Source: Acinetobacter sp.
GTDB taxonomy: Bacteria > Pseudomonadota > Gammaproteobacteria > Pseudomonadales > Moraxellaceae
Length of the DNA: 64,000 nucleotides
Direction: 5' to 3'
Assembly (NCBI GenBank): GCA_031277915.1
Contig: JAITLL010000018.1
Span: 1-64,000, forward strand
Within the stretch, counting starts at the first letter, position 1. Each line of letters starts with the position of its first letter. The translations under genes were made by a program, and so were the position numbers. Of the stretch, positions 4,289-57,057 are shown piece after piece. A model generated the notes under the pieces. It worked only from the letters and a program-made list of their open reading frames with translations. It was not told where the DNA came from and searched no databases.

Positions 4289-4849
4289 ATGTTAAATTTA
4301 GAAATATCTTCAGCAGAATTAAAAGTCATTTGTACCTCAATACATCTGTTTAATAGCAATGGATTTCATAACACAGGTATGAACCTTTTGATTAAACAAG
4401 CCAACATTCAAAAAGCCACTCTTTATAGTTATTTTCAGTCTAAAGAACGACTTATTGAAATGTGTATCAACTTTCAAACAAAATTACTCAAAGAAGCCGT
4501 ACTGGCTATTATCTACTCAAGCCACTACCGTACTCCAATTGATAAACTCAAAGAAATTGTTATTTTGCATGCTGATATTAAAAGCCTTTACCATCTTATA
4601 CTTAAAGCCATTTTTGAAGTAAAAATTATTTATCCAGAAGCTTACAACATGGCGGTTGAATATAGAAAATGGTTGCTTCATGAAATTTCTGAGTTGATCT
4701 TTAGTTTAGAAACCCATGCATTGAAACCTGATGCAAGCATGGTTTTAAACCTGATTGATGGTTTACTACTACAACTTTTAGACTCAAATAATTTAGATGA
4801 TAGGGATAAGGTGGTGGAACGTTTTTTTGGTGGGGTGAAGTTGCAATAG
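4289..4849 (+). CDS. TetR family regulator, module copy 1
   Basis: A 186-residue protein. The N-terminal helix-turn-helix (about residues 10-55) has the TetR pattern NGFHNTGMNLLIKQANIQKA followed by TLYSYFQSKERL. The C-terminal ligand domain contains the motif HADIKSLYHLILKAIFEVK, shared with the two other full copies in the window (26365 and 54588). It is the most diverged copy. About 120 bp of its leader is alignable with the leaders of the other two (aacaataaaact, then gagatg, cagtcttt and tggtaaaac just before the start). It may control the convergent pump at 4915-7577, but that pump has its own divergent TetR, so the target is unknown. Confidence 0.8.
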   Translation: MLNLEISSAELKVICTSIHLFNSNGFHNTGMNLLIKQANIQKATLYSYFQSKERLIEMCINFQTKLLKEAVLAIIYSSHYRTPIDKLKEIVILHADIKSLYHLILKAIFEVKIIYPEAYNMAVEYRKWLLHEISELIFSLETHALKPDASMVLNLIDGLLLQLLDSNNLDDRDKVVERFFGGVKLQ

Positions 4850-4861
4850 TATGGTGTCATA

Positions 4862-4888
4862 GTGGGCTGGCTCAGAGCCAGTACCCAC
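4862..4888. terminator. Hairpin between convergent genes
   Basis: Strong imperfect stem: gtggg-ctggctc / gagccag-ta-cccac with a one-base loop. It sits between the stop of the TetR gene (4849, +) and the stop of the HlyD-like gene (4915, -). There is no clear T-run, so a role as terminator or mRNA-end stabiliser is inferred from position. Confidence 0.45.
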
Positions 4889-4914
4889 CGATTGAATGAT
4901 TAGATTTAAAGCTC

Positions 4915-6003
4915 TTATTTCTTAGTCGTATCTACAGACACTACAACAGATAAACCAGGACGCAACGATTTAATATCCGCTTGGTTTTCAAGAAGCCTAA
5001 TACGTAACGGTAAGCGCTGAACAATTTTAGTAAAGTTACCAGTTGCATTCGTTGCTGAAATGGGTGAGAAAAATGCACCAGTCGATGGTGAGAAGCTATC
5101 TACTAAACCCTTTAACTCAACATTATAAGCATCGACATAGACAGTAACGGGTTGACCAATTTTAATTTGCTTTAGCTCAATTTCACGGAAGTTGGCTTCA
5201 ACATAAACTTGATCTAAAGGCACAACCACCATGAGTGGATTACCTGCGCCAACAAAGTTACCTACGTTTGCAGACTTTTGCCCAATCATGCCATCAATAG
5301 GTGCTCGAACTTCTGTATAGCTCAAGTTTAGTTTAGCTTTATCAAGTGCAGCTTGTGCTTGTTTCAAAGCGGCTTGTTTGGCTTGAACCTGAATTTTATA
5401 TTGGTTGAGCTGGTACTGAGCATCTATTACTTTTTCTTTACTGCTGTCTAAATCGGCATATTGTTCAGTCAAAGTAGTTTTTGACTGCTGCGTAATCAAT
5501 CTAGACTCTGCTCCAAGTGCTTGTAACTGCTCATAGCGGGCTGTATTGTCTTTTGTGAGTTTAATTCCAGCTTCTACTTTTCTAAGCTGAGCTTCTGTTT
5601 CTCGAATAACCGTTGGTTGTCTTTCAACAGCTAGCATTGCTTCATTTAGGTCGGCTTGTGCTTTGGCATAATTAGATTCGGCCTCAGCCATAGCTGCTTT
5701 ATAGTCGCGTGGGTCAATACGCGCTAAAAGCTGGCCTTTTTTTACGGTTTGGTGGTCTTTAATATAAATTTCTTCGATATTGCCCGACACTTTAGGGGCG
5801 ATGGTAGAGTACTCGACATCCACCCGTGCATCGTCGGTTTTAATAATCGAAGAAGGTATAAATATAAGCTTTAAAATCCATAAAATGGAGGCTAAAACAA
5901 TAATGAATGCAATAACCATAACCCAGTGTTTTTTAAGATATTGCACCTTTGTTAACTTGGGTGGTTCAGTAATGGTGTTATCTTGGGCTTCGTGAGTACT
6001 CAT
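4915..6003 (-). CDS. HlyD/EmrA-type membrane fusion protein
   Basis: A 362-residue periplasmic adaptor. There is one N-terminal membrane segment (about residues 30-52), a biotinyl-lipoyl-like half (DARVDVEYSTIAPKVSG) and a long alpha-helical hairpin (about 100-215, rich in Ala, Gln and Lys). The second lipoyl half contains LSYTEVRAPIDGMIGQ and is followed by a beta-barrel region. It would link the inner membrane DHA2 pump encoded just upstream to an outer membrane channel such as TolC. Its ATG overlaps the stop of the pump gene (ATGA), so the two are translationally coupled. No channel gene is present locally. Confidence 0.85.
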   Translation of the reverse strand: MSTHEAQDNTITEPPKLTKVQYLKKHWVMVIAFIIVLASILWILKLIFIPSSIIKTDDARVDVEYSTIAPKVSGNIEEIYIKDHQTVKKGQLLARIDPRDYKAAMAEAESNYAKAQADLNEAMLAVERQPTVIRETEAQLRKVEAGIKLTKDNTARYEQLQALGAESRLITQQSKTTLTEQYADLDSSKEKVIDAQYQLNQYKIQVQAKQAALKQAQAALDKAKLNLSYTEVRAPIDGMIGQKSANVGNFVGAGNPLMVVVPLDQVYVEANFREIELKQIKIGQPVTVYVDAYNVELKGLVDSFSPSTGAFFSPISATNATGNFTKIVQRLPLRIRLLENQADIKSLRPGLSVVVSVDTTKK

Positions 6004-7577
6004 AAAGATTTTCCTGAGTTATGACTATTCATTAACTTAATGAGAGCAATGCGTGGCGGATAAGTTCGAACTGGCAAAATCAACATAACGATAAATAAAA
6101 TTGCGGTAAGTCCCGCTAAAATCAGATATTGATCGCTAATGACCAACACCGACTGCTGTGCCTGAATGGCAGAATTTAAAGCAGATAAACCACCTGAAAC
6201 ACGTTCGGTACCATTTGCGGTAAGCACAGGTGGGGTAAGAGGGTTAATTACAGGACCTTGAATATTTTGAAAAACGTGTTGGGCAGTATTTTCAATCAGC
6301 CGTGTTGAATGGTATTCACCACGTACGCGATTGACCCAGTCCAAAATACATACACCTAGTACGCCGCTAATGGCACGTGGGGTATTAATCATTGGTGAGG
6401 CGTAAATTGCCATCGTCGGATGTACACTGTTTGTACCCATCATGAGCAATGACAACACCACACAGGTTTGACCTAAACATGAAATTGCATGCCAAAAATA
6501 AAACTGGTCTTGATTCCATGTGGTATCGAGTTGGCTTGCACCTAAGCAACCAGCCATAACCAGAAGTAAACCGAAACCATGTACATAGCGGCTGTCGACC
6601 CAAGCCTGATTTAAAACTTTAATAACAATGGGAATATAAATAAATTGTAAGGCCGCAATTTGTAAGCCAATCCACATGGTTTGCGTGGGTTTATAACCAT
6701 GTACAGCACTGAGGTAGTTCAGTGGCAATGTACTGGTTGACATCCCAATAATCACAAAGCAAAACAGAGCAATAACCGCGTAGGCAAAATTCCGTATTTC
6801 GAGCATTTGCGGTTTAATTAATGGTGTTGGGTAACGCCATTCATGTATTAAAAATAAAGGTAAGGTAATGGCACTGATTAAAGCCAACACACTAATTAAT
6901 TTAGAATGGAACCAGTCTAAATGATTGCCATGCAATAACATGGTACTCAAACTTGCTATGCCAATAATGGCTAAAATCGCACCTGTCCAATCGTAAGTTT
7001 TGATTCTTGAATAATTTAATGGATCTTGTGGAATACCAAAATAGACCAGCGCAGCACTTAAAGCACAAAAAGGAATGGTCTGAAAAAATATCATTTTCCA
7101 GCCAATCACATCTAAATAAAAGGCAGCGAGTGCAGCACTTAAGTTAGGAAAGAAAGTTGCGGTTAATGCATAACAGGCTAAACCCCAGAGTCGAATATCT
7201 GGCCCTAAAAAGCGTAGGGCACATGCCATGAGTAAGGGAATGGTTAAACCATTGGCAAGCCCTTGTAAGCCGCGTAATAAGTAAAATATTTCAATATTGG
7301 GACTAAAAGGAATTAAAACACTAGAGATGAGGCAAAGCCCTATAGCGAAAAGAAGAACTCTGCGCATAGAAAAAATAACGGCCCAACTCGTGGACAAGAT
7401 CATTCCAATAATCATGGTACTGGCATAAATACTGCTGACCCAATAACCAGAGTCGACACTAATACCCATTGCACCGCGAATATCGACCAAGGTAATGCTG
7501 GTGATTCGGTTATTAAATTCGACAGTCATTGCTGCAAAAATTGCACCTGCCAAACCGATGAGTGGTCGTATATTCAT
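6000..7577 (-). CDS. DHA2-family (EmrB-like) MFS efflux pump
   Basis: A 525-residue, very hydrophobic protein consistent with 14 membrane segments. It begins MNIRPLIGLAGAIFAAMTVEF and contains the MFS-like segment GYWVSSIYASTMIIGMILS. As part of an EmrAB-type system it should expel hydrophobic toxicants by proton antiport through the HlyD-like partner at 4915-6003. It is transcribed away from the TetR gene at 7750. The 172-bp gap contains a perfect palindrome suited to repression of both genes. The substrate cannot be read from sequence. Confidence 0.85.
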   Translation of the reverse strand: MNIRPLIGLAGAIFAAMTVEFNNRITSITLVDIRGAMGISVDSGYWVSSIYASTMIIGMILSTSWAVIFSMRRVLLFAIGLCLISSVLIPFSPNIEIFYLLRGLQGLANGLTIPLLMACALRFLGPDIRLWGLACYALTATFFPNLSAALAAFYLDVIGWKMIFFQTIPFCALSAALVYFGIPQDPLNYSRIKTYDWTGAILAIIGIASLSTMLLHGNHLDWFHSKLISVLALISAITLPLFLIHEWRYPTPLIKPQMLEIRNFAYAVIALFCFVIIGMSTSTLPLNYLSAVHGYKPTQTMWIGLQIAALQFIYIPIVIKVLNQAWVDSRYVHGFGLLLVMAGCLGASQLDTTWNQDQFYFWHAISCLGQTCVVLSLLMMGTNSVHPTMAIYASPMINTPRAISGVLGVCILDWVNRVRGEYHSTRLIENTAQHVFQNIQGPVINPLTPPVLTANGTERVSGGLSALNSAIQAQQSVLVISDQYLILAGLTAILFIVMLILPVRTYPPRIALIKLMNSHNSGKSL

Positions 7578-7640
7578 CTTTTACCTTAAATTTTAAAAAT
7601 GAACTTATTGCACCGAACAGGGCAAATATTAAGCTCAACT

Positions 7641-7654
7641 GTACCGATCGGTAC
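7641..7654. promoter_or_regulatory. Palindromic TetR-type operator
   Basis: gtaccgatcggtac is a perfect 14-bp palindrome and is extended by partial symmetry. It lies between the divergent EmrAB-like operon and the tetR gene at 7750. Position and symmetry suit autoregulated TetR repression; the binding itself is inferred. Confidence 0.65.
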
Positions 7655-7749
7655 TGTACTATCTTATTAAAATTACGTCAATTCTCGATTTTGAACTTTT
7701 TGATGAGTTACACTAATCATGAAATTTCTAAATATATTTGTAGGTTCGT

Positions 7750-8379
7750 ATGTCAGATTGCATTAAAGCCAATGAGAAAGATCAAAAAATTTTGGATGCA
7801 GCAACAAAGTTTTTTCTGATCCACGGTTTTAGTGGCACAACGACAGATATGATTCAAAAAGAAGCTGGTGTTTCAAAAGCCACCATGTATGGTTATTTTA
7901 AAAATAAAGAAGCGATGTTTGCTGCGGTCATTGAACGTCAATGCACCAACATGCAAAAACAAATTATTTTAGTGGAGACGCAAGCTAAAAATTTACGTTC
8001 AGCTTTAACCGAGATGGGAAAAACCTATCTCTGCTTTATATTGTCACATTCAGGTTTGGCTTTTTTTAGGGTTTGTATTGCTGAAGCAGTCAGATTCCCA
8101 GAGTTATCAGAAAAATTCTTTGAACTTGGACCACAAAAACTGGCAAATATTATTGCGGGTTATCTTGAAAAATCGGCCAAACAAGGGGAAATTGAATTAA
8201 GTTCTTCCTCAGAGGCGGCAAATATCTTTTTATCGCTTTTACGAAGTGATGCACATTTAAAATGTCTAACCCATCCTGATTATTTAATATCTGAGAATGA
8301 AATTAGTATTTGGGTTGAATATGTAGTCGATTTATTTTTAAAAAATATAAACTATCAGGAAAATCCAACTTCTACATAA
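7750..8379 (+). CDS. TetR/AcrR family regulator of the EmrAB-like pump
   Basis: A 209-residue protein with an N-terminal TetR helix-turn-helix (about residues 15-60: ATKFFLIHGFSGTTTDMIQK, then VSKATMYGYFKNKEAMF). The C-terminal domain resembles the AefR-like TetR group, with an aromatic- and Cys-containing helix (LCFILSHSGLAFFRVCIAEA). It is divergent from the pump operon with an operator-like palindrome between them, the classic arrangement of a local repressor. It differs clearly from the three paralogous TetR copies elsewhere in this window. Confidence 0.85.
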   Translation: MSDCIKANEKDQKILDAATKFFLIHGFSGTTTDMIQKEAGVSKATMYGYFKNKEAMFAAVIERQCTNMQKQIILVETQAKNLRSALTEMGKTYLCFILSHSGLAFFRVCIAEAVRFPELSEKFFELGPQKLANIIAGYLEKSAKQGEIELSSSSEAANIFLSLLRSDAHLKCLTHPDYLISENEISIWVEYVVDLFLKNINYQENPTST

Positions 8380-8392
8380 AATTGATAAAGCC

Positions 8393-8412
8393 AAGGCCGC
8401 AAAAGCGACCTT
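8393..8412. terminator. Bidirectional terminator-like hairpin
   Basis: aaggccgc / gcgacctt around an aaaa loop, followed by ttttc. It lies between the convergent tetR (ends 8379) and multicopper oxidase (ends 8445) genes. The stem has one C/A mismatch. Confidence 0.5.
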
Positions 8413-8444
8413 TTCATTAAGAGCTAAAATTAAAATAGTTAAGG

Positions 8445-10412
8445 TTAGTGATGCCCTTGCGAGACTCCACCATTCCCATCTGGAAGGCTAATGCGAATAT
8501 TTTGCATCATGCCTTGATCTTCATGATCTAAAATATGGCAGTGCAATACAAAATCACCGATATAGCGTTGGTATTTGGTTCTTACAACGATTTTATAACT
8601 GGCTCCCTGTACATTTTTAACCCAAATGGTGTCTTTCCATGTACCTTTCAAACCACGATATTGGGGATCGGGAGGAGCCGATTTGTCGTAGTCATCAATA
8701 GCATTGATATCGCTGACATCTTTACCGTTAGGGTCATACACTGCCACAACTTGAAATGGGTTTACATGAATATGAAAAGGGTGACTGGCTAATTTAGAGG
8801 TAAGTATCCATTCATCGGTTTTACCTAACTCAAGAGTACGGTCAATTCGGCCCGGTTTGTATGGTTTTCCATTCACCTGAAACTGAATTGGATTAGCCTT
8901 AGTATCAATATTAAATTCTAAAAATTGTTTATACGGTGTTGCTGGTAAGTCCTGATGAGGAACAAAATGACTGAGCTTTAAATTTTGTTCTAAATCTTGA
9001 AGCACAGCAGGAAGCATATCTGGTGCAATATTGCGTGTTGCATTATTGCTTAAAGCTGTTGTTAAAGACTGAGGTGGTGAAGTGGCTTTATTGACTTGAA
9101 TAATCCCAAGTAAGCGTCTCTCTGAAAATGTGCGATCCACGTTAGCAGAGGCAGATGCCGCTTCATCAATCAAACAATAACGGCCTTCTTGCGGGAATTG
9201 CATTAAGGCATCAAAACGGTAACCCGGTTGAAAAACAGTGATTGTTTTATCCATAACCTGTTTGAGAGCTAGACCATCTGCTGCAATGATGTGTTGACTC
9301 ACAATAGGGCCAGTACAACTCTCTCGTAATAGTTTTTTCTCGCCTGTTGGGGTCAAATCAAGTTTGGAAGGTATATTTTGCATTTGGCGAACGCTCAGGT
9401 TAATACTGTCGCGGACACCAGCATGAACCATTCTCCAACGTTCGACTTGTCCTGCTATGGTTTGAGTGATGAAAGGTTGAACTTCACCATTAATGCTCGT
9501 ATAGCGCCCAGATGTTCCCCAATCACCAGGACCAAAGCCTTGATAGTCCCTAATTTCACCAATTTGATTATTTGGGCAAATATAGTTTCCACTTTGGTCA
9601 GTTTCTATTTTTCCATTAGTATCATAGCAAGCGTACTGGATTTGCTGAAAAACCAGCGTTCTTTCTTTGAAACCATAAGTGAGTAAATCGAGATCACCTG
9701 TTTTATTTGGAGTGGGTTGTCGATATCCACGAATAATTAAAGCGCCTGCCATCCCACTTGCAACTTGAATAGCAGTTGAACCATGTCGATGTGGATGATA
9801 CCAAAACGTCCCAGCCGGATGGTCGGGTGGTATATTGTATTCGTACTGGAAGTTAACACCCGGATTAATCGAAACTAAAACGTTATCGCTATTTCCAGCT
9901 GGGTTAATCCATAAACCGTGTGTATGCATATTGGTGCCATCAAAACAGTGCGGTTTATTTACATCAAAATGGTCACCAGTACAGCTTGGGTCCTTAGGAA
10001 GTTTTGTGTGTGTAATTGGGTCTATATCCAGCTGATTATTTAAAGTTGCCCGTACAGTTTCACCGGGAAAGACCTCAATAGTTGGAGCAATATAAGGTGT
10101 ATCAGGTCGTGTATTTGTGCCTTGATAGCTACGTAACATGACTTGGTCATAACGGTTTGTTGCAGGGTTCCAGAGTCTATTTATCGTTTTTTTAACGTCC
10201 CAAGTAAACAGAGCTTCATTTGAAGATTGCATTTGTGGAGCATTTGTTGATGCAGTAGTAGGGTTCGGTGCTGCAAGCAAAGCTTGATGATTACGTGCAA
10301 CAGACATTTCAGGTGGGTCTTCTAATATACGGTTAGAAGACTCATCTGCTAAGGCATACCCACTCACTAACGTTAGAGGGGTGCATAATATTAAATGAGC
10401 TATTTTCATCAT
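8445..10412 (-). CDS. Exported multicopper oxidase
   Basis: A 655-residue protein with a Sec signal peptide (cleavage near ALADE). All four copper-ligand motifs are present in order: NMHTHGLW, WYHPHRHG, HPFHIHVN and, near the C terminus, HCHILDHEDQGMM, which carries the His-Cys-His and Met pattern of the type 1 and trinuclear copper sites. It should oxidise phenols or metal ions in the periplasm with reduction of oxygen to water. The length is greater than that of CueO. It follows a tyrosinase gene by 38 bp on the same strand, so the two copper oxidases are likely co-expressed. The natural substrate is not evident. Confidence 0.85.
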   Translation of the reverse strand: MMKIAHLILCTPLTLVSGYALADESSNRILEDPPEMSVARNHQALLAAPNPTTASTNAPQMQSSNEALFTWDVKKTINRLWNPATNRYDQVMLRSYQGTNTRPDTPYIAPTIEVFPGETVRATLNNQLDIDPITHTKLPKDPSCTGDHFDVNKPHCFDGTNMHTHGLWINPAGNSDNVLVSINPGVNFQYEYNIPPDHPAGTFWYHPHRHGSTAIQVASGMAGALIIRGYRQPTPNKTGDLDLLTYGFKERTLVFQQIQYACYDTNGKIETDQSGNYICPNNQIGEIRDYQGFGPGDWGTSGRYTSINGEVQPFITQTIAGQVERWRMVHAGVRDSINLSVRQMQNIPSKLDLTPTGEKKLLRESCTGPIVSQHIIAADGLALKQVMDKTITVFQPGYRFDALMQFPQEGRYCLIDEAASASANVDRTFSERRLLGIIQVNKATSPPQSLTTALSNNATRNIAPDMLPAVLQDLEQNLKLSHFVPHQDLPATPYKQFLEFNIDTKANPIQFQVNGKPYKPGRIDRTLELGKTDEWILTSKLASHPFHIHVNPFQVVAVYDPNGKDVSDINAIDDYDKSAPPDPQYRGLKGTWKDTIWVKNVQGASYKIVVRTKYQRYIGDFVLHCHILDHEDQGMMQNIRISLPDGNGGVSQGHH

Positions 10413-10418
10413 AAATAT

Positions 10419-10438
10419 AGGCCTGAAAAATCAGGCCT
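10419..10438 (-). promoter_or_regulatory. Intercistronic hairpin between tyrosinase and multicopper oxidase genes
   Basis: Perfect 8-bp inverted repeat aggcctga / tcaggcct with a four-base loop, in the 38-bp gap between the two minus-strand genes. On the transcribed strand one arm carries the only AGG-like ribosome-site candidate for the oxidase. It could therefore tune translation or end part of the transcripts. This is inference. Confidence 0.45.
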
Positions 10439-10450
10439 CTCCCTTATTTA

Positions 10451-13196: not shown

Positions 13197-13294
13197 ATAT
13201 TTTTGGCTGAAATTAATAAAAATATGGCTTTTCTACGTTAGTTTGCCATAGGGCTATTTTATATCATGCCTCTATAAACGTAAGGAAGATGATC

Positions 13295-24003: not shown

Positions 24004-25335
24004 ATGAAAAAATTAACAATACAAGCTTTACTCAATAAAAACTGGATAGATATAGCAGAACTAAAGCTGTTAGAGCCTAAGTTAGGTTCGTCTAGTGCTA
24101 GTGAACTCGAATATGAATTGAATTATGCCATTCAATATTCAGACAGACGAGATGAGCACGCCTGTAGTTTATCGCTTCCTGTACAAATTCTTATAAAACA
24201 CGAATCGAGCACATGGTTTGGCTTTTTAGATGACATTGTTCCATCTGGAGCCGCACGCCGTTATTGGGTGAATTATCTAGATTTACAACGTTTAACCCAT
24301 GCAGAGCAAGAAAGTATTTTATTAGAAAAAGGGGGAATGGCACCCGTTGGTAATTTAAGAATTAAGGAAGCATTGCCTCCTCTAAACCCAGAATCAACCT
24401 TACATTTACGTTATTTTTCTAAGGAAGATGTGGCTGAGCGTAATATTGATTTTCTGGAATATGCTCAGCAAATGGGTGCTATTAGTGGTGGTGCAACTGG
24501 TGCAGGCGGTGAAGCTCCCAAGTTACTTATTCGTGTTTCACCAGAACAACAAGTCTGGATTGATACCTACCAAGAACAATTTGATCAGCCAGATCAGCAT
24601 TATTTAGTTAAATTCCCGCGAAATAAACGTAGTGAGATTGACTGTAACATTCTCAGAGCTGAATATTATTACTATCAGATACTCAATGAGTTAGGTTTTA
24701 ATACGATTGAAACAACGCAAATGCAGCTCATTGAAGGTACAAAATATCCATCTTTGTGGCTACCACGGTTTGACACCGAATGGCGTGATCAAAGTTGGCA
24801 TCGTCATGGTCTAGAGTCTGTGTATTCGGTACTCAATAAGTCTTCTGGCAGTCATCTTAATCATTTTGAAGTCATTGAAGATCTATGTAGATTACTCACA
24901 AGCATTGACTCAGATTTTGATGCTTCACAATTTGTTTGTGAGTGGTTACAACGCGACTTACTCAATATCATTTTTGGTAACTCAGATAACCATGGTCGTA
25001 ATACATCATTCCTAAAAAAATCTGGAAAAATTATTCTTTCTCCTATTTATGACTTTGCGCCTATGAAAGCCGACCCAGAAGTTGTGACCAGATCAACGAC
25101 TTGGGGAAGTCCATACGAAGAAGGTGGTGAATACCGTTGGGCGCAAATTACTCAAAAACTTGCCCCATGGTGTGATCCTGCCGTATCGCTAGCAACATTA
25201 AAGACTCTGGCAAATAATCTGCTTGGCTTAAGACAACGACTGGTTGACAAAGGTGTTCCGAAACAAATTATTGAAATGCCTGCGCTGTCATTTGATTACA
25301 TAGAAGCTAAATTAAAAAGATGGGAACTGCTATGA
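24004..25335 (+). CDS. hipA: HipA family kinase toxin
   Basis: A 443-residue protein with the HipA layout. The Gly-rich nucleotide loop is GGATGAGGEAPKLLI (about 162-176). The catalytic segment is LLNIIFGNSDNHGRNTSFL (about 320-337, catalytic Asp near 328), and the metal-binding segment is LSPIYDFAPM (Asp near 350). Relatives phosphorylate glutamyl-tRNA synthetase or other targets and stop growth. The antitoxin-like HTH gene follows and its ATG overlaps this stop (ATGA). The order toxin then antitoxin is the reverse of E. coli hipBA. The active-site residues appear intact. Confidence 0.85.
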   Translation: MKKLTIQALLNKNWIDIAELKLLEPKLGSSSASELEYELNYAIQYSDRRDEHACSLSLPVQILIKHESSTWFGFLDDIVPSGAARRYWVNYLDLQRLTHAEQESILLEKGGMAPVGNLRIKEALPPLNPESTLHLRYFSKEDVAERNIDFLEYAQQMGAISGGATGAGGEAPKLLIRVSPEQQVWIDTYQEQFDQPDQHYLVKFPRNKRSEIDCNILRAEYYYYQILNELGFNTIETTQMQLIEGTKYPSLWLPRFDTEWRDQSWHRHGLESVYSVLNKSSGSHLNHFEVIEDLCRLLTSIDSDFDASQFVCEWLQRDLLNIIFGNSDNHGRNTSFLKKSGKIILSPIYDFAPMKADPEVVTRSTTWGSPYEEGGEYRWAQITQKLAPWCDPAVSLATLKTLANNLLGLRQRLVDKGVPKQIIEMPALSFDYIEAKLKRWELL

Positions 25336-25640
25336 ATATAAAAAATCAAACCCAAGACCGTCAGCAAGTTCTTATCGATTTATATAAACAGTATTTGTTG
25401 AGTGAGATTACGCTAGGACAACTACTGTCGTATTTACGCAAAAATGTGTTGGGTTTGTCGCAAGAACAATATGCTAATTTGGTGGGTATAAGCCGTCGGA
25501 CTTTAACTGACATTGAACAAGATAAAGGTAAACTCACTCAGTCAGTGCTAGATAAAGTATTTAAGCCGCTTGGTTTAAAAGCAGGGCTTGTACCTACACA
25601 TGAACATATTGTGAGTAAAATTATAAAGCCAACTGAGTAA
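25332..25640 (+). CDS. hipB: HipB-like XRE antitoxin/regulator
   Basis: About 102 residues from the ATG at 25332, which overlaps the hipA stop. An upstream in-frame ATG at 25320 would overlap by 16 bp. A single XRE helix-turn-helix occupies about 30-85 (LRKNVLGLSQEQYANLVGIS, RRTLTDIEQDKGKL). The short C-terminal tail GLKAGLVPTHEH may contact HipA. It should neutralise HipA and repress the operon through the upstream repeats. Confidence 0.8.
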   Translation: MNIKNQTQDRQQVLIDLYKQYLLSEITLGQLLSYLRKNVLGLSQEQYANLVGISRRTLTDIEQDKGKLTQSVLDKVFKPLGLKAGLVPTHEHIVSKIIKPTE

Positions 25641-25682: not shown

Positions 25683-25974
25683 GGAAAGACATTTTTTGAG
25701 CCAAATTAGACCTTAAGTTTTTGAAATTTTAAACTTTAACTTAATGATATAAAAGATGATTGTAAATATTACTTAAGAGTTTCCTTAATTATCTAATTAA
25801 ATGAAAAATAATAACTATTTAAATAATTTCTAGCCAATTTCACATTGACACCTTAATTTTTGAAGATTACCATTTGCGGGCTGGCCTACATCGCCAGTCG
25901 GTTCTCGCAGACCGTATTTTTGGACTACATCAGAGCTATTTCTTCTGAGGAATAGTTTTGCATGTAAATCTCGT

Positions 25975-26086
25975 TCCCTCCCGTAGCGGTAGGACGGGAG
26001 AGGGACACCCTTGGGTGTGCTGGAGTCCAAACCAGTCTGCGAACCCTCTTTCGTTCTGCCACCATAATCTTATGCTCTGGCAGAAC
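25975..26086 (+). ncRNA. Candidate structured RNA in TetR module copy 2
   Basis: Three successive stems: tccctcccgt (25975-25984) with acgggagaggga (25994-26005, one bulge), acaccc/gggtgt (26005-26018) and gttctgcca/tggcagaac (26053-26061 and 26078-26086). All three recur in the copy at 54191-54307, with changes mostly in the loops. Function is unknown. Minus-strand overlapping frames (for example 25936-26142) are also open, so a small peptide is an alternative. Confidence 0.4.
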
Positions 26087-26364
26087 TCCATATATAAGGA
26101 GTCGGCTTTGCACATCCATAATTTATTGGCAACCTTTGCCAAAAGCTATAACAACACAGCTTAAAACATTTAACGCAGCTTGATCGCCGTAAGGCTTTTC
26201 AGGCTTTAGCTCGTTATTACTTAAAACTTCATCAACAACTAAAACTTGAGATGTGCTCGGCACAGTCTTTACGGCTTTGCTACGCCTTTTTTTCACCTTT
26301 AGAAAAGTGGAAGGCTTTTATATCTCATTTATATACAACAATAATTTTTTATAACGGTAAAAAT

Positions 26365-26934
26365 ATGCAAAATTTAGTTCTCCCAACACGTGCATTAAAA
26401 GTCGTAAATAAATCAATTGAGCTGTTTCACTATAATGGGTTTCATATAGTCGGCGTAGACAGACTCGTGAAAGAGTCTGGCATTCCAAAAATGACGTTTT
26501 ATAACTACTTTCACTCTAAACAACGCTTTGTTGAAATTTGTTTGATGGTACAAAAAGAACGACTTCAAGACCAAGTGATTGAAATGGTCGAATACGATGA
26601 ATACACAAGCGCAGTCGATAAACTCAAAAAGCTCTATGATTTACACGCAGACATAGACGGGCTGTATTACCTGTTATTTAAAGCCATATTTGAAACGAAA
26701 AATAACTACCCAAACGCGTACACAACCGCCGTGAGATATAGAACATGGCTCACCAACGAAATATATAGCCAGCTTAGAGCACTTAACTCCGATGCTACTT
26801 TTACTGATGCCAAGCTATTTGTGTATATGATCGATGGCGCCGTGATTCAGCGGTTAAGTTCGGATGAATTTGATGAAAGGGTAGTGGAGGTGTTTTTAAG
26901 AGGGATGGGGGGAGGTGTAAATAATTTTGAGTAG
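26365..26934 (+). CDS. TetR family regulator, module copy 2
   Basis: A 189-residue protein from the ATG at 26365. A longer frame to 26251 is open but lies inside the conserved non-coding leader. The HTH is at about residues 10-55 (IELFHYNGFHIVGVDRLVKE, SGIPKMTFYNYFHSKQRFVE). The C-terminal domain (HADIDGLYYLLFKAIFETKN, YRTWLTNEIYSQLRALN) is nearly the same as in copy 3 at 54588, with most differences at the extreme C terminus. It precedes the orphan gene at 27104 and could regulate it. The ligand is unknown. Confidence 0.85.
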   Translation: MQNLVLPTRALKVVNKSIELFHYNGFHIVGVDRLVKESGIPKMTFYNYFHSKQRFVEICLMVQKERLQDQVIEMVEYDEYTSAVDKLKKLYDLHADIDGLYYLLFKAIFETKNNYPNAYTTAVRYRTWLTNEIYSQLRALNSDATFTDAKLFVYMIDGAVIQRLSSDEFDERVVEVFLRGMGGGVNNFE

Positions 26935-27103: not shown

Positions 27104-28795
27104 ATGGATCAAATGTTAGACTTAAGTGTAATTGATAAATTAATTGATGAAGAATCAGAAAGTGTAAAATTAAAAAAAATCAGTTTAGAGTTAGCTATAT
27201 GGAGGTTTTTAACAGTTGCTGAGGATCATGTAAGATGCTTATACATTGCTGAGAATATGAGTTTTGAAGAAATTAGTTTTATTAACTTTCAAATGAAATT
27301 TATTTACAAATTTTCTATTCAAAAAATTTGTAGAGATATGTTGAAAATAAATGTAAAAAAAATAGATCTAAAAACAAATCAACTAGTGTATAAAGAATAT
27401 GGTGAATTAATATCATCTAGTTTTAATTATGTTAAAAAGTACAATATTATTTCAAGGCTATATGATAATTATTTTGATTTAAGTATAAACGGAAATATAG
27501 TGGATTGCACCTATAAACAGAACGCTTATTTGTGTGAATATAGTGCTTTAGAATTGTTAGGACATGGACAATCTGAAAGAGACTTATTTGTAAGTGTCAT
27601 CCTAAGCTTTTATTATTTAAATAAGGAAACCTCTTTAAAATGTTTTGTATTTGACAATTTTGAATCAAAAGTATTATTGAAAAATAGAAGTATTTCTTAT
27701 AAATTTGATTCTTCATTTTTGAATATATTAAATAATGCATTTGGAGAACTAAAGAGGAAATGTGTTTTTAATGGGAATTTTATTTTTAAATGGGGAGATT
27801 CTGAGACCACTAGGAAAGTAATAGATGCAATTCTTACTAGATGTCTTTCTCATTTATTAATCATGTGGGTGGCTGTAAAAAAATATAATTTTGTAGGTGG
27901 CTTTGAAGATAGTCTTGTACTACAAATTAAGAAAGAAATGCTAGTCGAAGAAATATCTTTAATATCTAATATCGATAACAAAAATATTATATATGAAGTA
28001 ATTGATTTTTTAACCTATCTAATAAATGATCCTAATGCAGATTCTGCTTTACAACCAATATTTGATTTTCAAGGTAATTTGTATTTACCATGCATTCATA
28101 TAATTGAATCAAATATAGAGAGAAATATTTTCACACTATATTCACGAAAGGAAACAAAAGAATATGATAGTGGTAGTAAAGTATTTGAATTAAGTATGAT
28201 TGAATCTATTGAGAAAAACTTAATTAATTATAATTATAAGAAGAATTTTAAAATCAGGATATCTGGAAATGACCAAGAATATGATTTTATTTTAATTGAT
28301 AAGATAAATAAATTTATTATGATTGTTGAGTTGAGATGGATGATTCAACCTGCAGACCCAAGAGAAATCTCAAGAAAACTTAATGCTTGCAGAGAAAAGT
28401 TAGATAAAGTTAAAGAAAAAAAAGAATATATGATAAATTTCAAAAAAAATTTTGAAAAAAGTTTATATTTAGATAACTTAGATGAATATTCAATTCAAGG
28501 AGTAATTGTAATTGATGGATATGGTGGAGAATTTTCAGAGGATATAGATATCCCTTTAACTACTATGGAAATTTTTAATATCGCATTATGTTCATGCAAA
28601 GGGATAGTAGAAGTCTATGAGAGTATTAAGAGTTTAAAATGGCTTCCAAAAGAAAATGAATTTTTTTGTAAGGCTAATGAAGCTTTCGAAATTGGACACT
28701 ATACTTTTAATATTTCTGGGCTGAGCATAATAAGTAGAGATACGAATAGCTATGTTAAATCATTAAAAAATTTTTTTGAAAAATTTGAAATTTGA
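27104..28795 (+). CDS. Orphan protein with a possible PD-(D/E)XK nuclease-like core
   Basis: A 563-residue protein that I do not recognise. Base composition is clearly more AT-rich than the neighbours, with many Ile, Lys, Asn and Phe codons ending in A or T, which suggests recent transfer. Around residues 395-430 the segment YDFILIDKINKFIMIVELRW is followed by MIQPADPREI. It has the strand-loop-strand spacing of a restriction-like nuclease core, with Asp, then Glu-Leu-Arg in place of E-x-K, so activity is uncertain. No signal peptide or membrane segments are seen. It lies alone behind a TetR gene and an 18-bp inverted repeat. A defence or mobile-element role is only a hypothesis. Confidence 0.6.
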   Translation: MDQMLDLSVIDKLIDEESESVKLKKISLELAIWRFLTVAEDHVRCLYIAENMSFEEISFINFQMKFIYKFSIQKICRDMLKINVKKIDLKTNQLVYKEYGELISSSFNYVKKYNIISRLYDNYFDLSINGNIVDCTYKQNAYLCEYSALELLGHGQSERDLFVSVILSFYYLNKETSLKCFVFDNFESKVLLKNRSISYKFDSSFLNILNNAFGELKRKCVFNGNFIFKWGDSETTRKVIDAILTRCLSHLLIMWVAVKKYNFVGGFEDSLVLQIKKEMLVEEISLISNIDNKNIIYEVIDFLTYLINDPNADSALQPIFDFQGNLYLPCIHIIESNIERNIFTLYSRKETKEYDSGSKVFELSMIESIEKNLINYNYKKNFKIRISGNDQEYDFILIDKINKFIMIVELRWMIQPADPREISRKLNACREKLDKVKEKKEYMINFKKNFEKSLYLDNLDEYSIQGVIVIDGYGGEFSEDIDIPLTTMEIFNIALCSCKGIVEVYESIKSLKWLPKENEFFCKANEAFEIGHYTFNISGLSIISRDTNSYVKSLKNFFEKFEI

Positions 28796-28914: not shown

Positions 28915-29423
28915 ATGAAAGACATTGAAATCTTAGAAATTGGTGATTATGAAAAAGATCTATCACTATTGTTAGACGATTCTGTAATAACAAGGCCTCA
29001 ATAGGTTTTCTGGCTCCGATAGAAAAGAAAGAACTCTTAAATTATTGGCGTGAGGGCAACCATAAATTAGCACAAGGGAATAGCCGTTTATGGATTGCTA
29101 TTCAACAAGGAAAAATTGTCGGTAGTGTTCAATTGTCTTTGGTGAGTAAAAAGAATGGAGTTCATAGAGCTGAAGTTGAAAAACTCATGGTGCTTACAGC
29201 AGCAAGAAAACAAGGAATAGCAACGTTACTACTGGATGAACTAGAAAATTTTTCACGAGAAAAGGATTTGCGCTTACTTGTCTTAGATACACGTGAAGGT
29301 GATGTGTCCGAACTTTTATATAGCAAAATTGGATTTGTCCGTGTGGGTGTAATTCCAAGTTTCGCATTAAGTTCCAATGGAAACTATGACGGTACGGCGA
29401 TTTATTATAAAAGGCTTGTTTGA
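28915..29423 (+). pseudogene. GNAT acetyltransferase with frameshift
   Basis: The ATG at 28915 opens MKDIEILEIGDYEKDLSLLL and stops at a TAG after about 29 codons. A shift near 28983-28987 (gtaataac where gtaaataac would keep frame) restores a long frame: NNKASIGFLAPIEKKELLNY, then the GNAT acetyl-CoA motif AARKQGIATLLLDELENF and LYSKIGFVRVG to the stop at 29423. A single lost A explains the break. An internal ATG at 29133 could yield only a 96-residue C-terminal part. The protein is probably inactive in this strain. Confidence 0.75.
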
Positions 29424-29546
29424 AACTAGAAAAAACTTCCAAAAGCTTATACAACTGCCGTGAGTTGTAGAACATGGCTTACTAACGAAATATATAGCCA
29501 ACTAGTACTTAAGTTAGATGCTTCTATTTTCGTAAAAGCTCTATAA
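29422..29546 (+). pseudogene. TetR relic (module family)
   Basis: gaaact at 29422 aligns with the ETKN codons of the full copies. After one lost base the frame reads PKAYTTAVSCRTWLTNEIYS then QLVLKLDASIFVKAL and a stop. This matches YPNAYTTAVRYRTWLTNEIYSQL of the 26365 gene. It abuts the stop of the acetyltransferase relic, with no start or HTH region left. Confidence 0.8.
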
Positions 29547-32333: not shown

Positions 32334-32372
32334 TGTTTAATTGCATAGTTCAGCTTTTAGATCTAAATCAAA
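32334..32372 (+). pseudogene. Short TetR relic fragment
   Basis: Reads IVQLLDLNQT in the frame corresponding to MVQLLDSNKP of the relic at 34682 and LLLQLLDSNN of the full gene at 4289. The fragment is very short, so homology rests on its near identity to the 34672 relic. Confidence 0.4.
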
Positions 32373-32456
32373 CCAGCTAAAAGGGAAAAGTATCCTACTT
32401 TCTGACTGCATAACTTATACGCTCAAAAATAATGTGAATGTTACAATTTGTGTGAT

Positions 32457-34671: not shown

Positions 34672-34762
34672 GTTTAATTGCATGGTTCAGCTTTTAGACT
34701 CAAATAAACCTGATGAACGGAAGAGATTGCTTGAGTCTTTTTTATATGGCTTGGTTATTTAG
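34672..34762 (+). pseudogene. TetR relic (module family, C-terminal end)
   Basis: From 34682 the frame reads MVQLLDSNKPDERKRLLESF then LYGLVI and a stop. This aligns with LLLQLLDSNNLDDRDKVVER at the C terminus of the 4289 TetR. Nothing of the N-terminal part remains. It lies directly after the terminator of the ArsR-rhodanese gene. Confidence 0.7.
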
Positions 34763-47885: not shown

Positions 47886-47920
47886 AGGATTTTTATCAAT
47901 CTAAGAATCTACCAGTAGCT

Positions 47921-49111: not shown

Positions 49112-49294
49112 GGTAGCCTCAAATTCCTTTTGGGGCATACAACATCCCAATTTAATATTTTTTATTAGAATGTTGTATGAATATTATCTATATTGTGATT
49201 TAGAATTAAGTAAATATCCTTAGTCTGGTATGGGTTAATTTTGACTTTTAATACTCTCCTATAGTTCTCTAAATTTTTCGTTTCTATATTGCCG

Positions 49295-52529: not shown

Positions 52530-53594
52530 GTGAAGGTAAGTTTTAATACAAATGGTAAAGTTCGAATTGGTTTAATTAATCATATACTAGATAATTGTGA
52601 CTCTTTTAATATTACCAGAGAAGAATTAATAGAAAAAATTAATTTAAATGAAAACTTATTGATAGACCCTAATTCTTTTTTATCATTTCAATATTTAGAA
52701 AAAATAATACTTTTCTTATTTTCTAATTCAGATGACCCATTAAAATTAATCAAATTTATTGACAAAAATAACTCTATAGCAAATGGAGTATTAGGTTATT
52801 TAATTGAAATTAGTTCCACCTTGCAAGAAGCAATAGAGACTTTTGAAAAATATTGGGAGCTAAATGGTAAAATTGGTAAGGTTTTTCTAATCGAAAAGGA
52901 AGAATTTATTTCTCTAGAGTGGGTATGCTTATTAGGTAGTCCAAAATTTATAAAATATGCAACAGAGTATAAAATTGCTTGGTGGACTAGTATTGTTCAA
53001 CTCGTCAAAAGTAATGAACAAACGATCTTGCATTCGATACATTTTCAACATGATGTTTTGAAACCTGAACATGTTGAATTTTATGAAAACTTTTTTAAAT
53101 GTCCTGTATATTTTAATCAGCCAAAGTCAGCAATTGTTTTATCAAAAAATGCATTAAATTTACCATTAAAAACAGCAAATCGTAGATTGTATGAAAGTAT
53201 TGAAAATTACGCCAAATTAATTGTGAAAGAGTCAATAGAGAGTAATGAATTTACGAGTAAAGTACGTTCTATCTTATATGAGCAGCTATATATAGGAGGA
53301 AATTTTTCACGTGACTATATTGCAAGTAAATTAGGGGTAAGTGAGCGTACATTAAGTAGAAAATTACTTGAAGAGCAAAGTAAATATAGTGATATTTTAG
53401 ATGAAATTAGATTTGATCTTGCAAAAAATTATTTGAGAAACAAAGATTTTAAAATATCTATAATTTCTAAATCTTTGGGGTTCTATACTTCTACTGCTTT
53501 TATAACTTGGTTCAAGTCCAAAACAGGAAGTACACCAAATAAGTTTAGAGAGACTCATAAAGAAAAATGCCTGCTCAACTCTATAAATAACTGA
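52530..53594 (+). CDS. AraC family regulator (arabinose-binding-like N-terminal domain)
   Basis: About 354 residues from the GTG at 52530 (MKVSFNTNGKVRIGL); a TTG start at 52515 is also in frame. The N-terminal domain (about 20-210) is of the kind seen in OruR/VirF-like regulators. The C-terminal AraC HTH (about 245-350) contains SRDYIASKLGVSERTLSRKL and ISIISKSLGFYTSTAFITWF. It is divergent from the sulfatase genes. AT-rich codon use is stronger than in the neighbours. Confidence 0.75.
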   Translation: MKVSFNTNGKVRIGLINHILDNCDSFNITREELIEKINLNENLLIDPNSFLSFQYLEKIILFLFSNSDDPLKLIKFIDKNNSIANGVLGYLIEISSTLQEAIETFEKYWELNGKIGKVFLIEKEEFISLEWVCLLGSPKFIKYATEYKIAWWTSIVQLVKSNEQTILHSIHFQHDVLKPEHVEFYENFFKCPVYFNQPKSAIVLSKNALNLPLKTANRRLYESIENYAKLIVKESIESNEFTSKVRSILYEQLYIGGNFSRDYIASKLGVSERTLSRKLLEEQSKYSDILDEIRFDLAKNYLRNKDFKISIISKSLGFYTSTAFITWFKSKTGSTPNKFRETHKEKCLLNSINN

Positions 53595-53643
53595 ATATTC
53601 CTAGATGAACAGGCTAAATTTCTAAACATACCTTTAAGGGTGC

Positions 53644-53845
53644 TTAGGTAAAGTTAAGCACGCCGTATTCAGAGCCACCTTTAAAGCCAATTTTCAGCCA
53701 GTTTAAATTTTTAAACAGAGGGTTTTCAGAACTGTTAAGCGCAGGGGCATCTTTAACACTTTCAAGAAGTGGGCAAATTTCATTGGCTGAGAGATACCAC
53801 TCTGCATCCTGCCATGTCGCTGTTTTTCCAATACTACTTCTTAGT
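53644..53845 (-). pseudogene. C-terminal relic of a serine hydrolase (beta-lactamase-like)
   Basis: On the minus strand 53845-53644 reads RSSIGKTATWQDAEWYLSAN, then EICPLLESVKDAPALNSSEN, ending WLKIGFKGGSEYGVLNFT and a stop. The FKGGSEYGV segment resembles the KTG-box region of class A beta-lactamase-like serine hydrolases. No start or upstream half exists, so this is a fragment. Confidence 0.5.
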
Positions 53846-54190
53846 TAGAAAGTTCGTCACTGAATGTCCTCTCTTATTAAAAATTAATCTCTAATTTTTT
53901 ATCAATAGCTTAAAACAATAGTTCATTTTGGCTTATCAAACTCAATATATCTATATAAATTTAAAGCGCTTTATAAACCTCAAATTAATAATAAATTTGA
54001 ATTATTTATTCTTATTTTTTTTATGATCTATTTTAAAGCAAATGTCATTTTGTGTGCTTGACGATAAGAGACTTGAGCACTATTCTTTGCGGACTGGCCA
54101 CATTGCCAGTCAGTCGTCGCAGACTGCACAATGAAAGACCGTATCAGGATTATTTCTTCTGAGGAATAGTTTTGTGCGTGGACTCCTCGT

Positions 54191-54307
54191 TCCCTCCCGT
54201 AGCGGTAGGACGGGAGAGGGACACCCTCGGGTGTGCTGGTCAAGTCTTTCTCCAGTCTGCGAACCTTCTTCCGTTCTGCCACCCTAATTTTAATGTTTTG
54301 GCAGAAC
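54191..54307 (+). ncRNA. Candidate structured RNA in TetR module copy 3
   Basis: Stems tccctcccgt (54191-54200) with acgggagaggga (54210-54221), and gttctgcca (54273-54281) with tggcagaac (54299-54307). The loop of the last stem differs from copy 2 while the arms are unchanged, which favours selection on structure. Confidence 0.4.
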
Positions 54308-54587
54308 TCCCAATAAAAAGGAGTTGGCTTTGCACATTCATTATTTCTTGGCAACCTTTGCCAAAAGCTATAACGACACAACTTAAAACATATTTAGCAG
54401 CTTGATCACCAATAGGTTTTCAGGCTTTAAGTCATTAAGGCTCAAAAAACTTGCATCAACAATAAAACTTGAGATGTGCTCGGCACAGTCTTTATGGCTT
54501 TGCTACGCCTTTTTTTCACCTTTAGAAAAGTAAAAGGCTTTTATATCTCATTTATATACAACAATAATTTTTTATAGCGGTAAAACT

Positions 54588-55136
54588 ATGCCAAATTTAA
54601 TTCTCTCAACACGTACATTAAACATCGTAAATAAAGCAATTGAGCTGTTTCACTACAATGGATTTCATATAGTCGGCGTCGACAAAATTGTGAAAGAGTC
54701 CGAAATACCAAAAATGACGTTTTATAACTATTTCCACTCTAAAGAACGCTTTATTGAAATTTGCCTAATCGTGCAAAAAGAACGACTCCAAGAGAAAATA
54801 GGTTCTATGGTGGAATATGACGATGCCACAAGCGCAATCGATAAACTCAAAAAGCTTTATTATTTACACGCAGATATAGATGGACTGTACTATTTGTTGT
54901 TTAAAGCTATTTTTGAAACTAAAAATAACTATCCAAATGCCTATACAACTGCATTGAGATATAGAACATGGCTTACCAACGAAATATATAGCCAGCTTAG
55001 AGCACTTAACCCAGATGCTTCATTTTCGGATGCTAAACTGTTTGTGTATATGATCGAAGGTGCCATTATTCAGCGCTTAAGTTCGGATGAAGTTAATGAG
55101 AGAGTACTTGAGCTGTTTTTTAAAACAAGCATTTGA
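54588..55136 (+). CDS. TetR family regulator, module copy 3
   Basis: A 182-residue protein from the ATG at 54588 (MPNLILSTRTLNIVNKAIEL). The HTH is IELFHYNGFHIVGVDKIVKE, then IPKMTFYNYFHSKERFIEIC. The ligand domain is nearly identical to copy 2 (HADIDGLYYLLFKAIFETKN). It ends shorter (LELFFKTSI). A terminator-like leader hairpin precedes it (gcctttt / aaaaggc then ttttatat, about 54507-54545). In copy 2 the matching arm differs. The regulated gene is unknown. Confidence 0.85.
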   Translation: MPNLILSTRTLNIVNKAIELFHYNGFHIVGVDKIVKESEIPKMTFYNYFHSKERFIEICLIVQKERLQEKIGSMVEYDDATSAIDKLKKLYYLHADIDGLYYLLFKAIFETKNNYPNAYTTALRYRTWLTNEIYSQLRALNPDASFSDAKLFVYMIEGAIIQRLSSDEVNERVLELFFKTSI

Positions 55137-55205
55137 ATATAAAAGAATAATTTAAAATATGGTGTGATGAATAGACCATGAGCGCTGTGCGATCAGCCGA
55201 AGTAG

Positions 55206-55225
55206 AGTGGTGGCAGTCCACCACT
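55206..55225 (+). terminator. Hairpin downstream of TetR copy 3
   Basis: Perfect 8-bp stem agtggtgg / ccaccact around cagt, about 70 bp after the stop. No T-run follows; the role is uncertain. Confidence 0.4.
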
Positions 55226-55318
55226 AACTACAAGGTATCTACAAAATCGTTGGCTATTCAATAAGTAAAGTTTACTATTTGCTATGAAATATTATAGTGA
55301 GGCTAGATTTTTTGATAG

Positions 55319-55555
55319 CTACGATTTTTGTTTGGCTTTTTGGCGTAAGACATACAAATATAAGCTTTCTACTTTTTCACGTGCCCATGGCGTGGTACGT
55401 AAGAATCGTAATGATGATTTAACACTTGGATCTATGCAAAAACATCTAATTTCAATTTTACGACTTAAGCCTTCAAATCCACCGTAGTAGTCCAATAATT
55501 CATCCAAAATGTCAGCAAGTTTTTTGCCGTGTAAAGGGTCATTGGAGGCGTTCAT
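55319..55555 (-). CDS. VF530-type (DUF2132) DNA-binding protein
   Basis: A 78-residue protein matching the small VF530 family from end to end: NDPLHGKKLADILDELLDYY, GFEGLSRKIEIRCFCIDPSV and KSSLRFLRTTPWAREKVESL. The family is a compact helical fold with predicted DNA binding. It sits between TetR copy 3 and a TetR relic, on the opposite strand. Confidence 0.85.
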   Translation of the reverse strand: MNASNDPLHGKKLADILDELLDYYGGFEGLSRKIEIRCFCIDPSVKSSLRFLRTTPWAREKVESLYLYVLRQKAKQKS

Positions 55556-55556
55556 A

Positions 55557-57057
55557 ATAAATCAACAATATTTTGGGAGCCCATTATTATAACCTGAGCT
55601 AGTTTGAAAATGAGAGGGTTGAAATTTAAACCTAATTAGCGGGAGAGATTGCTTGAATATTTTTTGATGCATTGGTGTGAGTATTTGAAATACTGTATGT
55701 ATTGTGGTGATGGAAATCCAAAGAATAGCTGTACACACGTACTATATCAGTTTTTCTAAGCATGTAAAGGAGTTTTTGAAAATTTATTTATAAATTTCAA
55801 TAATATATAAATAAATCAATGTATTTGAATTTAGCCTAAGCAAACTAATAACTTTAATATTCAAAAGTCCATTTAGGGAAAGAAGTCTGTACAGCAGCAG
55901 CAACCAGTAGCCAAAAATACAGCCCGTAAAGGCGGTAAGTAGCTTACACGTTCTAGCTAGGGCAAAATAAAAGTGTAATTACATTTTGTAGAAGGTTGCC
56001 TAGAGAATTATTCTGACTAAAACTAGAAATAGAGTTATGCCAAAGGTAATTAAGAGCGCTAAAGCCCAGCATACAGTGGCACAAGTTTAATAATTGACCA
56101 CAGTAAAGAATAAACGGCGTAGCAACAACGTAGAGTAGCCAGAGCCATATATGGTAGGTTCTTATATATCTTATTTAACATAATATAGATTATGCGAACA
56201 GTTATATAATTCATGCTTAGATTACTGTGTTGCTGAGTTTTCAGCTCTGGTATTTTATTTTGTTTAGCCTACATTGAGTTTCTCTTACCAATATTTGATA
56301 AAAATGTGACGTCTCATCTTTCTATTTAAATTTAGGCTACTACAGTACGTTTCAGAAATTATTGTGGCGCTATCTCGGTTATTTTTTTAGCTTTTACTAT
56401 GCTTAGACGTTTAGATCATTGCTTAGCTAAAAATTTGAATTAAATTACAGATATGAAATCTACTTAATAACTGAATAGCCAAATTCATAGCCATATGTTC
56501 TCTGTCACTATAAAGTAATTTTTCTTACGCTCATCATGTCTTTATTTTATTGAAGGAAATAAATTAAGAATTAAATTTAAGTAGTATTGTGGCTTAATTC
56601 TATACTATGGAATTTTATTCAACAGTACTAAATATTCTAAATGATTGTTTAGAATATATTCAATATCGTTTTTTATTAACTTAAACTTGTTATATTTTAG
56701 TTTGCATAAATATAAAAGCACATAACTAAATCAAAAATAATATATTATTATGTTAAATAATATTAATGGTTAAAGTGCTATGAGTTTTAAAAAGTAAGGT
56801 TATTCTTATTAAAGTATTTATTATCAGTAATTTATTTTTATGCAAATCAATATTTGTTATTGTTTAATAATGTGATTTGATTATCATTTTTTGAGAGGTG
56901 TCTATAAACTAATAACTATTTATATAAATAAAATGATTAATGAGATATAGGTCACATGTTATTTGTTATTTTTTATTAAGATTAATTTTTATATTGTCTT
57001 TAAATAAAAAATATTGTATCTCTTATATTAACTATTTAATAAATAGGTATATATAAA
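55557..57057. other. Gene-poor accessory stretch
   Basis: About 1.5 kb without a credible gene. Seen: a TetR relic (55628-55666), a short basic frame near 55890-55940 ending VAKNTARKGGK, and a 17-codon frame at 56038 (MPKVIKSAKAQHTVAQV). The remainder is very AT-rich up to the fimbrial locus. It looks like the debris of lost genes. Confidence 0.5.
55628..55666 (+). pseudogene. Short TetR relic fragment
   Basis: Reads KPN, stop, RERLLEYFL. It aligns with KPDERKRLLESFL of the relic at 34672 (26 or more of 39 bases in common, same frame). Too short to be sure alone. Confidence 0.45.

Follow-up and report, generated by a model that had tools for sequence, protein, structure and literature searches.

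Previous studies of Acinetobacter have described, each apart from the other, a family of TetR-type transcriptional regulators (TTTRs) and a class of C4-like small RNAs (sRNAs). Here we analysed a stretch of 64,000 nucleotides (nt) from Acinetobacter sp. (assembly GCA_031277915.1, contig JAITLL010000018.1, positions 1 to 64,000 of the forward strand; hereafter the window), which holds dispersed members of a tetR family, and found that these genes are repeated together with a leader and a C4 antisense RNA. According to the sections of PMC9802203 consulted, A. baumannii AB5075 has 11 TTTRs (ABUW_1645 and ten others) plus a pseudogene, overexpression of the 11 genes turns opaque cells translucent, random activation of different TTTRs drives virulent opaque/translucent colony switching, and the discussion leaves open how each TTTR gets turned on; these sections name no C4 RNA or shared leader, the sRNA studied there being the plasmid-borne SrvS. 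For the same strain, the parts of PMC5320573 consulted describe 21 C4-like Group 1 sRNAs with an upstream 'Region 1', tandem truncated copies and processing at GGW motifs, and the table there gives their strand as > up to 1.96 Mb and < from 2.51 Mb (exceptions 042 and 056). These sRNAs and the RNAs of the present family have the same Rfam motif, a number of about 20 per genome, an upstream region and tandem truncated copies in common, but the same parts of that paper draw no link between them and TetR genes, the word 'TetR' occurring once and not for a linked gene. In the open literature, subscription papers being outside the scope of the search, we found no paper joining the TTTRs with the C4-like sRNAs, although the link may be on record among the neighbouring genes in Table S1 of PMC5320573. 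The TTTRs and the family in the window are alike in being related TetR genes, unlinked on the chromosome and similar in number.

C4 RNAs are released by RNase P out of a longer transcript and act in antisense. In the c4-icd-ant immunity operon of phages P1 and P7, the C4 RNA lies in the leader with short paired a and b sites and the controlled gene lies downstream; in P1 a ribosome-binding site located 3' of the C4 serves as its second target. In transformation of Acinetobacter, homology-facilitated illegitimate recombination adds flanking DNA by means of one homologous anchor and one illegitimate joint. Compared with the latter, the anchor here would be a repeated module with about 12-19 landing sites per genome; compared with P1/P7, the position of icd-ant is filled by a chromosomal tetR, and many addressed copies exist per genome. 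We read the cassettes reported here as a variant of P1-type C4 control, the c4-a1b1 motif itself being listed in a table within the consulted part of PMC2864571.

Three full TetR genes of one family, all with a TetR_N domain (Pfam) and all on the + strand, were confirmed in the window: copy 1 (4289-4849, 186 aa), copy 2 (26365-26934, 189 aa, or 227 aa from an alternative in-frame start at 26251) and copy 3 (54588-55136, 182 aa). Protein identity is 81% between copies 2 and 3 and 44% between copies 1 and 2, which makes copy 1 a distant relative within the family; its leader has only about 125 nt in common with the leaders of the other copies. The first-pass annotation had described a dispersed paralogous tetR family with decayed copies; this held, but the repeated unit is larger than tetR, namely a cassette of about 1.2 kb made of leader, C4 RNA and tetR, as follows from the C4 pairing and from the limits of the alignments. 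Indeed, the within-genome alignments listed mostly start near -600 and end at most about 25 nt from the tetR stop or earlier, with unrelated DNA beyond. Module 2 (25765-26934, + strand, start approximate, about 600 nt before the ATG) carries a C4 RNA at 25982-26066 (RF01695, 56.3 bits), of which the specificity loop (26024-26031) and the b' strand are complementary to an upstream a1 site (25919-25926) and b1 site (25905-25912), respectively; b1 was read from the sequence by eye and a1 came from a loop-complement search, and the family-wide tests given below were separate. The block 25873-26364, noted earlier, is the leader of this module. Module 3 (53988-55136, + strand, start approximate), which has the repeat families D1 and D5-D7 in common with module 2, carries a C4 RNA at 54198-54286 (59.7 bits) with a specificity loop (54240-54251) that pairs with an a1 site at 54133-54139. 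Both scores, obtained with the covariance model, exceed the RF01695 gathering score of 45. Outside the window the arrangement is nearly constant: a C4 RNA lies upstream and on the same strand in 92/92 copies of six complete genomes (90 of them with the RNA 275-331 nt before the gene), before 17/18 full copies of the source genome as matched by hand (the exception is copy 1), before 12/13 copies in NZ_CP077849 under stricter filters, and at 14/14 loci from 14 low-copy genomes, one locus being examined per genome.

The P1/P7 arrangement, with sites upstream of the C4 and complementary to a' and b', was found in the family. Parsing of the variable hairpin loop (a') succeeded for 118 of 121 modules and gave 49 types (the three others are copy 1 of the window, a copy in genome W02, and a copy in genome G083 with its C4 only 91 nt from the gene). 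When each loop type was compared with the upstream stretch in its own leader and in other leaders, the longest exact loop complement averaged 7.45 nt in the own leader versus 4.39 nt in foreign ones (0/20,000 permutations), and duplex energies also differed between own and foreign leaders (per-type Wilcoxon, P = 7e-9); the distance from the a1 site to the hairpin downstream of it is about 85-109 nt in most loop types. Likewise, the six variants of the b' strand gave longer matches in the own leader (7.7 nt) than in foreign ones (4.5 nt, 3/5,000 permutations), with a match of at least 6 nt in 115/118 modules. A further 14 loci outside the first set, representing 7 loop types, agreed (own runs 6-8 nt, foreign means 3.5-5.4 nt). 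Loop and site thus change together across the 49 types, and the pairing has therefore been kept; such compensatory co-variation is what a1/b1 sites should show. Region 1, which is perhaps auxiliary in the account given in the consulted part of PMC5320573, here holds the sites that match the C4 address. Within a genome the loops are nearly all distinct (100/105); duplicate pairs numbered 5 among 749 where 10.7 would be expected (P = 0.04), a hint at avoidance of cross-talk.

Several other features of the leaders were observed. A short open reading frame (ORF) with a Shine-Dalgarno (SD)-like AAGGAG lies between the C4 and tetR (window 26108-26164, peptide like LHIHYFLATFAKSYNDTA) and recurs in many modules; it is perhaps a leader peptide in place of the phage icd. 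By eye, GTTCTGCC at the 3' side of the C4 can pair with GGCAGAAC just downstream (window 26053-26086), which would be an alternative to the outer C4 stem. As for coding by the C4 stretch itself, open frames over the C4 are common but are not kept in one frame, and the idea was dropped. Three extra C4 RNAs stand in tandem before the module's own C4 at locus L073 (9102-9682, that is, G083:C1:255601-256181) and likewise at the matching place in L136, alongside which we name the tandem C4s ABUWs066-069 from the consulted part of PMC5320573; the loops of such extra C4s match their own leader weakly at most. In the source genome, L071 (9715-9994) and L072 (9666-10005) contain C4 and leader pieces and no full family tetR in the 20-kb stretch, and in W02 (C1:623300-625148, L112) two family members stand in tandem in one slot, 0.8 kb apart, the first without a parsed C4.

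When the copies of seven genomes were placed by position, 108 copies fell into 25 slots, 21 of which were occupied in two or more of these genomes. Among 231 same-slot pairs, 122 had the same TetR subfamily and 41 the same loop, and 109 differed in subfamily; because same-slot pairs so often differ in subfamily and loop, we conclude that modules are replaced in place. Both flanks were joined to the module alike in 10/404 ordered slot pairs (each pair in both directions). Between genomes G083 and G136, the flanks beside 11 slots were 40-54% aligned, depending on distance class, versus 99.5% for control loci 25-30 kb away (8/10 locus pairs, two without overlap being left out), and some slots were well conserved on one or both sides. 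Of 407 neighbouring-ORF families within 3 kb, 277 were present in one of the seven genomes, a count made with no control set. At the slot of copy 2, the left anchor is common to all nine genomes compared, the downstream acetyltransferase gene occurs also in 5/8 others at different distances from tetR, and two further genomes share the stretch from the 29.4-kb relic onward, the right part of the relic included. Cargo therefore varies at the same module between genomes, which goes against the possibility, raised at the outset, that the copies keep the same order with no cargo differences.

All full copies and relics in the window are on the + strand, and a constant strand had been named beforehand as a sign of a hotspot. 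The bias indeed extends beyond the window: in the six complete genomes, where dnaA and dif were located, 92/92 copies are on the leading strand, and in three of the six the copy nearest dif is at 1.0-5.6 kb, whereas neighbouring ORFs of at least 150 aa are on that strand in 570/881 cases. Manual placement of six copies from five additional genomes put these on the leading strand too (for G065, one of its six). The chance of this result is about 4e-5 to 1e-4 (21 slots, background 62-65%). The single strand seen in the window thus fits a co-orientation with replication that is genome-wide in this oriented set of six, rather than a local feature. Selection on a strongly expressed RNA would explain it most simply, and entry by a strand-bound route is possible.

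Relics of the family also have a regular geometry. Counted as clusters with at least 5 hits at a distance from modules, 14 relics were found, all on the same strand as the nearest full copy: 3' relics lay downstream of it in 8 cases and upstream in 1, and 5' relics upstream in 4 and downstream in 1, so that the truncated edge faces the intact module in 12/14 (P = 0.006), or in 10/12 after orthologues were merged by eye (P = 0.02). The count leaves out distant TetR matches, which arose because some distant TetR genes were among the queries, L091 (the leader of a neighbouring module), clusters with fewer than 5 hits (including those at 32345 and 55628 in the window), and ten 5' pieces, most of them tandem C4s, that lie no more than 100 nt from a module. 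The earlier view that relics are 3' parts only is true of the window and fails for the family, in which 5' pieces are found outside the window, most of them upstream of a full copy. Homology-facilitated illegitimate recombination predicts such a geometry, which would arise if one joint were homologous, within a module, and the other illegitimate, within an older copy. Thus, of the two origins considered at first, recombination at the module, one-sided, would fit the relics better, and cargo jumping into tetR would fit less well.

The features by which TTTRs are recognised, a TetR_N domain and several unlinked paralogues per genome, are present in this family, and it is very likely the TTTR family of Acinetobacter. 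The comparison with AB5075 was made by map order, with gene number taken as map position: the 12 TTTR loci lie on average 27 kb from the nearest Group 1 sRNA versus 115 kb for random genes (P = 1.5e-4), and the order matches.

On balance, we think it probable that TTTR cassettes with self-addressed C4 RNAs are exchanged among slots and anchor gene exchange. Since the C4 address (loop a' and strand b') matches the leader of its own module, the cassette most likely silences its own tetR transcript. We propose that the C4 RNA is probably cut from the leader transcript and that the released C4 would bind a1/b1 on new transcripts of its own module, whereupon tetR output would fall; chance escape from this silencing would turn one TTTR on. 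Alternatively, a1/b1 may hold the C4 inactive within the precursor until it is cut. The cassettes, which reach 12-19 copies in a single group of the genus and occupy the leading strand, would be traded among about 25 chromosomal slots, with the module as a homology anchor through which neighbouring DNA might enter via one homologous and one illegitimate joint; such entry would leave 5' relics upstream and 3' relics downstream of an intact copy. Further, each genome may hold about 11-17 near-orthogonal RNA addresses, one per TTTR, which would be silenced singly and freed at random while the cassettes are traded between fixed leading-strand slots, a version that we advance tentatively, as quite possible but short of probable. 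If true, a phage immunity device would have been turned into a chromosomal combination lock with landing pads for new genes. The self-matching antisense RNA before nearly every family gene is a concrete candidate control element for TTTR activation and offers a role for Region 1 of the abundant C4-like sRNAs, and the modules would mark places of gene exchange in a genus noted for acquiring genes.

Several results weigh against this account. The Rfam search found no C4 RNA before copy 1 of the window, one W02 copy also has no C4, and in 5/49 loop types the exact match to the own leader is below 6 nt. The second target, an SD-like site just 3' of the C4, is matched in only about 8/49 loop types, and the downstream energy test over all loop types was null (Wilcoxon P = 0.65), although the downstream run-length test was not (5.37 versus 4.76 nt, 0/20,000 permutations). 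All 29 distant TetR gene matches in genomes G007, G008, G053, G083, G085 and G136 are on the lagging strand, a bias that comes from few orthologue groups and that our account cannot explain. Two of the 14 relics point the other way. Finally, no empty site was present among the loci fetched, and the first entry is therefore unexplained.

Other explanations were weighed on the same evidence. The family might have expanded before the species split, with the variable regions simply tolerating change, the C4 being a phage relic carried along and the tetR relics being products of decay. The recurrence of most slots (21/25) indicates that much of the dispersal is old, and Rfam C4 is present in 128/150 genomes, mostly at low number; yet loop and site co-vary over 49 types, so that their pairing has been retained, subfamilies differ at the same slot in 109/231 pairs, and plain decay does not predict edges that face intact modules (12/14 and 10/12, as above), so we regard it as unlikely as a full account. 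The C4 RNAs could instead act mainly in trans, on phages or on other host genes, with the adjacent tetR as a passenger or as one target among others. C4 controls the immunity of phage P1, as the consulted part of PMC5320573 describes, the same source proposes phage or host targets for the Group 1 sRNAs, and some loop types do recur in different modules (68/4,751 different-slot pairs across genomes). However, the best matches are to the own leader, loops are nearly all distinct within genomes (100/105; 5/749 duplicates versus 10.7 expected), and the tandem and stray C4s examined mostly match no module leader of their genome, which makes a predominantly trans role improbable.

If the unit were a mobile element with ends of its own, which a trans-acting enzyme moves in one orientation relative to the replication fork, this would account for a defined unit with unrelated DNA outside it, for the single orientation (92/92) and for a module nested with relics of others. 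Against it, no inverted repeat of at least 40 nt is present in the window, shorter ends not having been searched systematically, no empty site occurred among the fetched loci, and the relic breakpoints fall at many different points of the gene; we consider such an element very unlikely. The first-pass statement that no transposase or terminal repeats explain the pattern is supported as regards a transposase and long terminal repeats. The exchange of self-addressed cassettes among slots is the reading that we retain.

In the source genome the family comprises 18 full copies and two cut by contig ends. Among 150 Acinetobacter genomes sampled, 29 matched at E<=1e-25 (15 with 12-19 matches and 14 with 1-6) and 121 did not; the 15 rich genomes have 19-26 Rfam C4 matches versus 0-15 in the remaining 135. 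Close relatives occur in records named as A. nosocomialis, A. seifertii, A. baumannii and others, and the copy-rich group would correspond to the A. baumannii complex. A phage origin of tetR was considered and set aside: tblastn against a phage collection returned 30 records in one search and 28 in another, every one named Acinetobacter, and those listed (20 of the 30 and all 28) are 'Acinetobacter phage MD-2021a', with contigs of at most 379 kb and at most 4 places each, which we take for A. baumannii chromosome filed as phage (CAKLQF/CAKLQH) and did not count as phages; a match to PHROG 21633 was also obtained. Spread by plasmids was likewise rejected, as the three smaller plasmid records (12.7, 23.3 and 120.9 kb) carry chromosome-like genes (csu fimbriae, hemE and others) and three records of 3.7-4.1 Mb filed as plasmids (NZ_CP077849, NZ_CP064203 and NZ_CP104448) look chromosomal and were used as chromosomes.

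Within the window, four tetR 3' relics on the + strand, predicted at first sight, aligned with the TetR family (E 2e-27 to 3e-5) in a search with module queries and a search space set at 2.3 Mb: 29400-29532 (E 2e-27, tetR nt 304-441), 34681-34757 (E 3e-18 for the match 34682-34745, tetR nt 477-541), and two weak ones at 32345-32391 (E 3e-5, tetR nt 477-523) and 55628-55671 (E 8e-6, tetR nt 501-545). In 20 dinucleotide shuffles of the window there were 0 matches at E<=1e-4, and the best shuffle match (n = 1; 43.7 bits) scored below the weakest window relic (46.4 bits). The VF530 gene reported between copy 3 and the 55628 relic was confirmed on the minus strand at 55325-55558 (PF09905, E 1.2e-28). 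An ORF of 563 aa that directly follows copy 2 (27104-28795, + strand) had, at the thresholds applied, no match in Pfam, NCBIfam, PHROGs or PADLOC.

Defence cargo was looked for as a common theme and set aside: of 267 rare neighbour families of at least 150 aa, 80 with sizes of about 330-563 aa were scanned, without a control set, and the 25 of 122 PADLOC families listed each occurred in one protein (methyltransferase, reverse transcriptase and others), while among the 25 of 106 Pfam families listed the most frequent were major facilitator superfamily (MFS) transporters (7/80) and AraC-type helix-turn-helix (HTH) domains (6/80). Beside the 29400 relic, the GNAT acetyltransferase gene (28915-29423; domain from a profile match) looks frame-broken by eye: an in-frame stop interrupts it near 29002, and the domain carries on in a different frame. 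The genes immediately to the left of module 2, one HipA-like and one HTH (24004-25640), resemble a toxin-antitoxin pair, and direct repeats of 142 and 255 nt are internal to an 811-aa ORF at window positions 310-2021.

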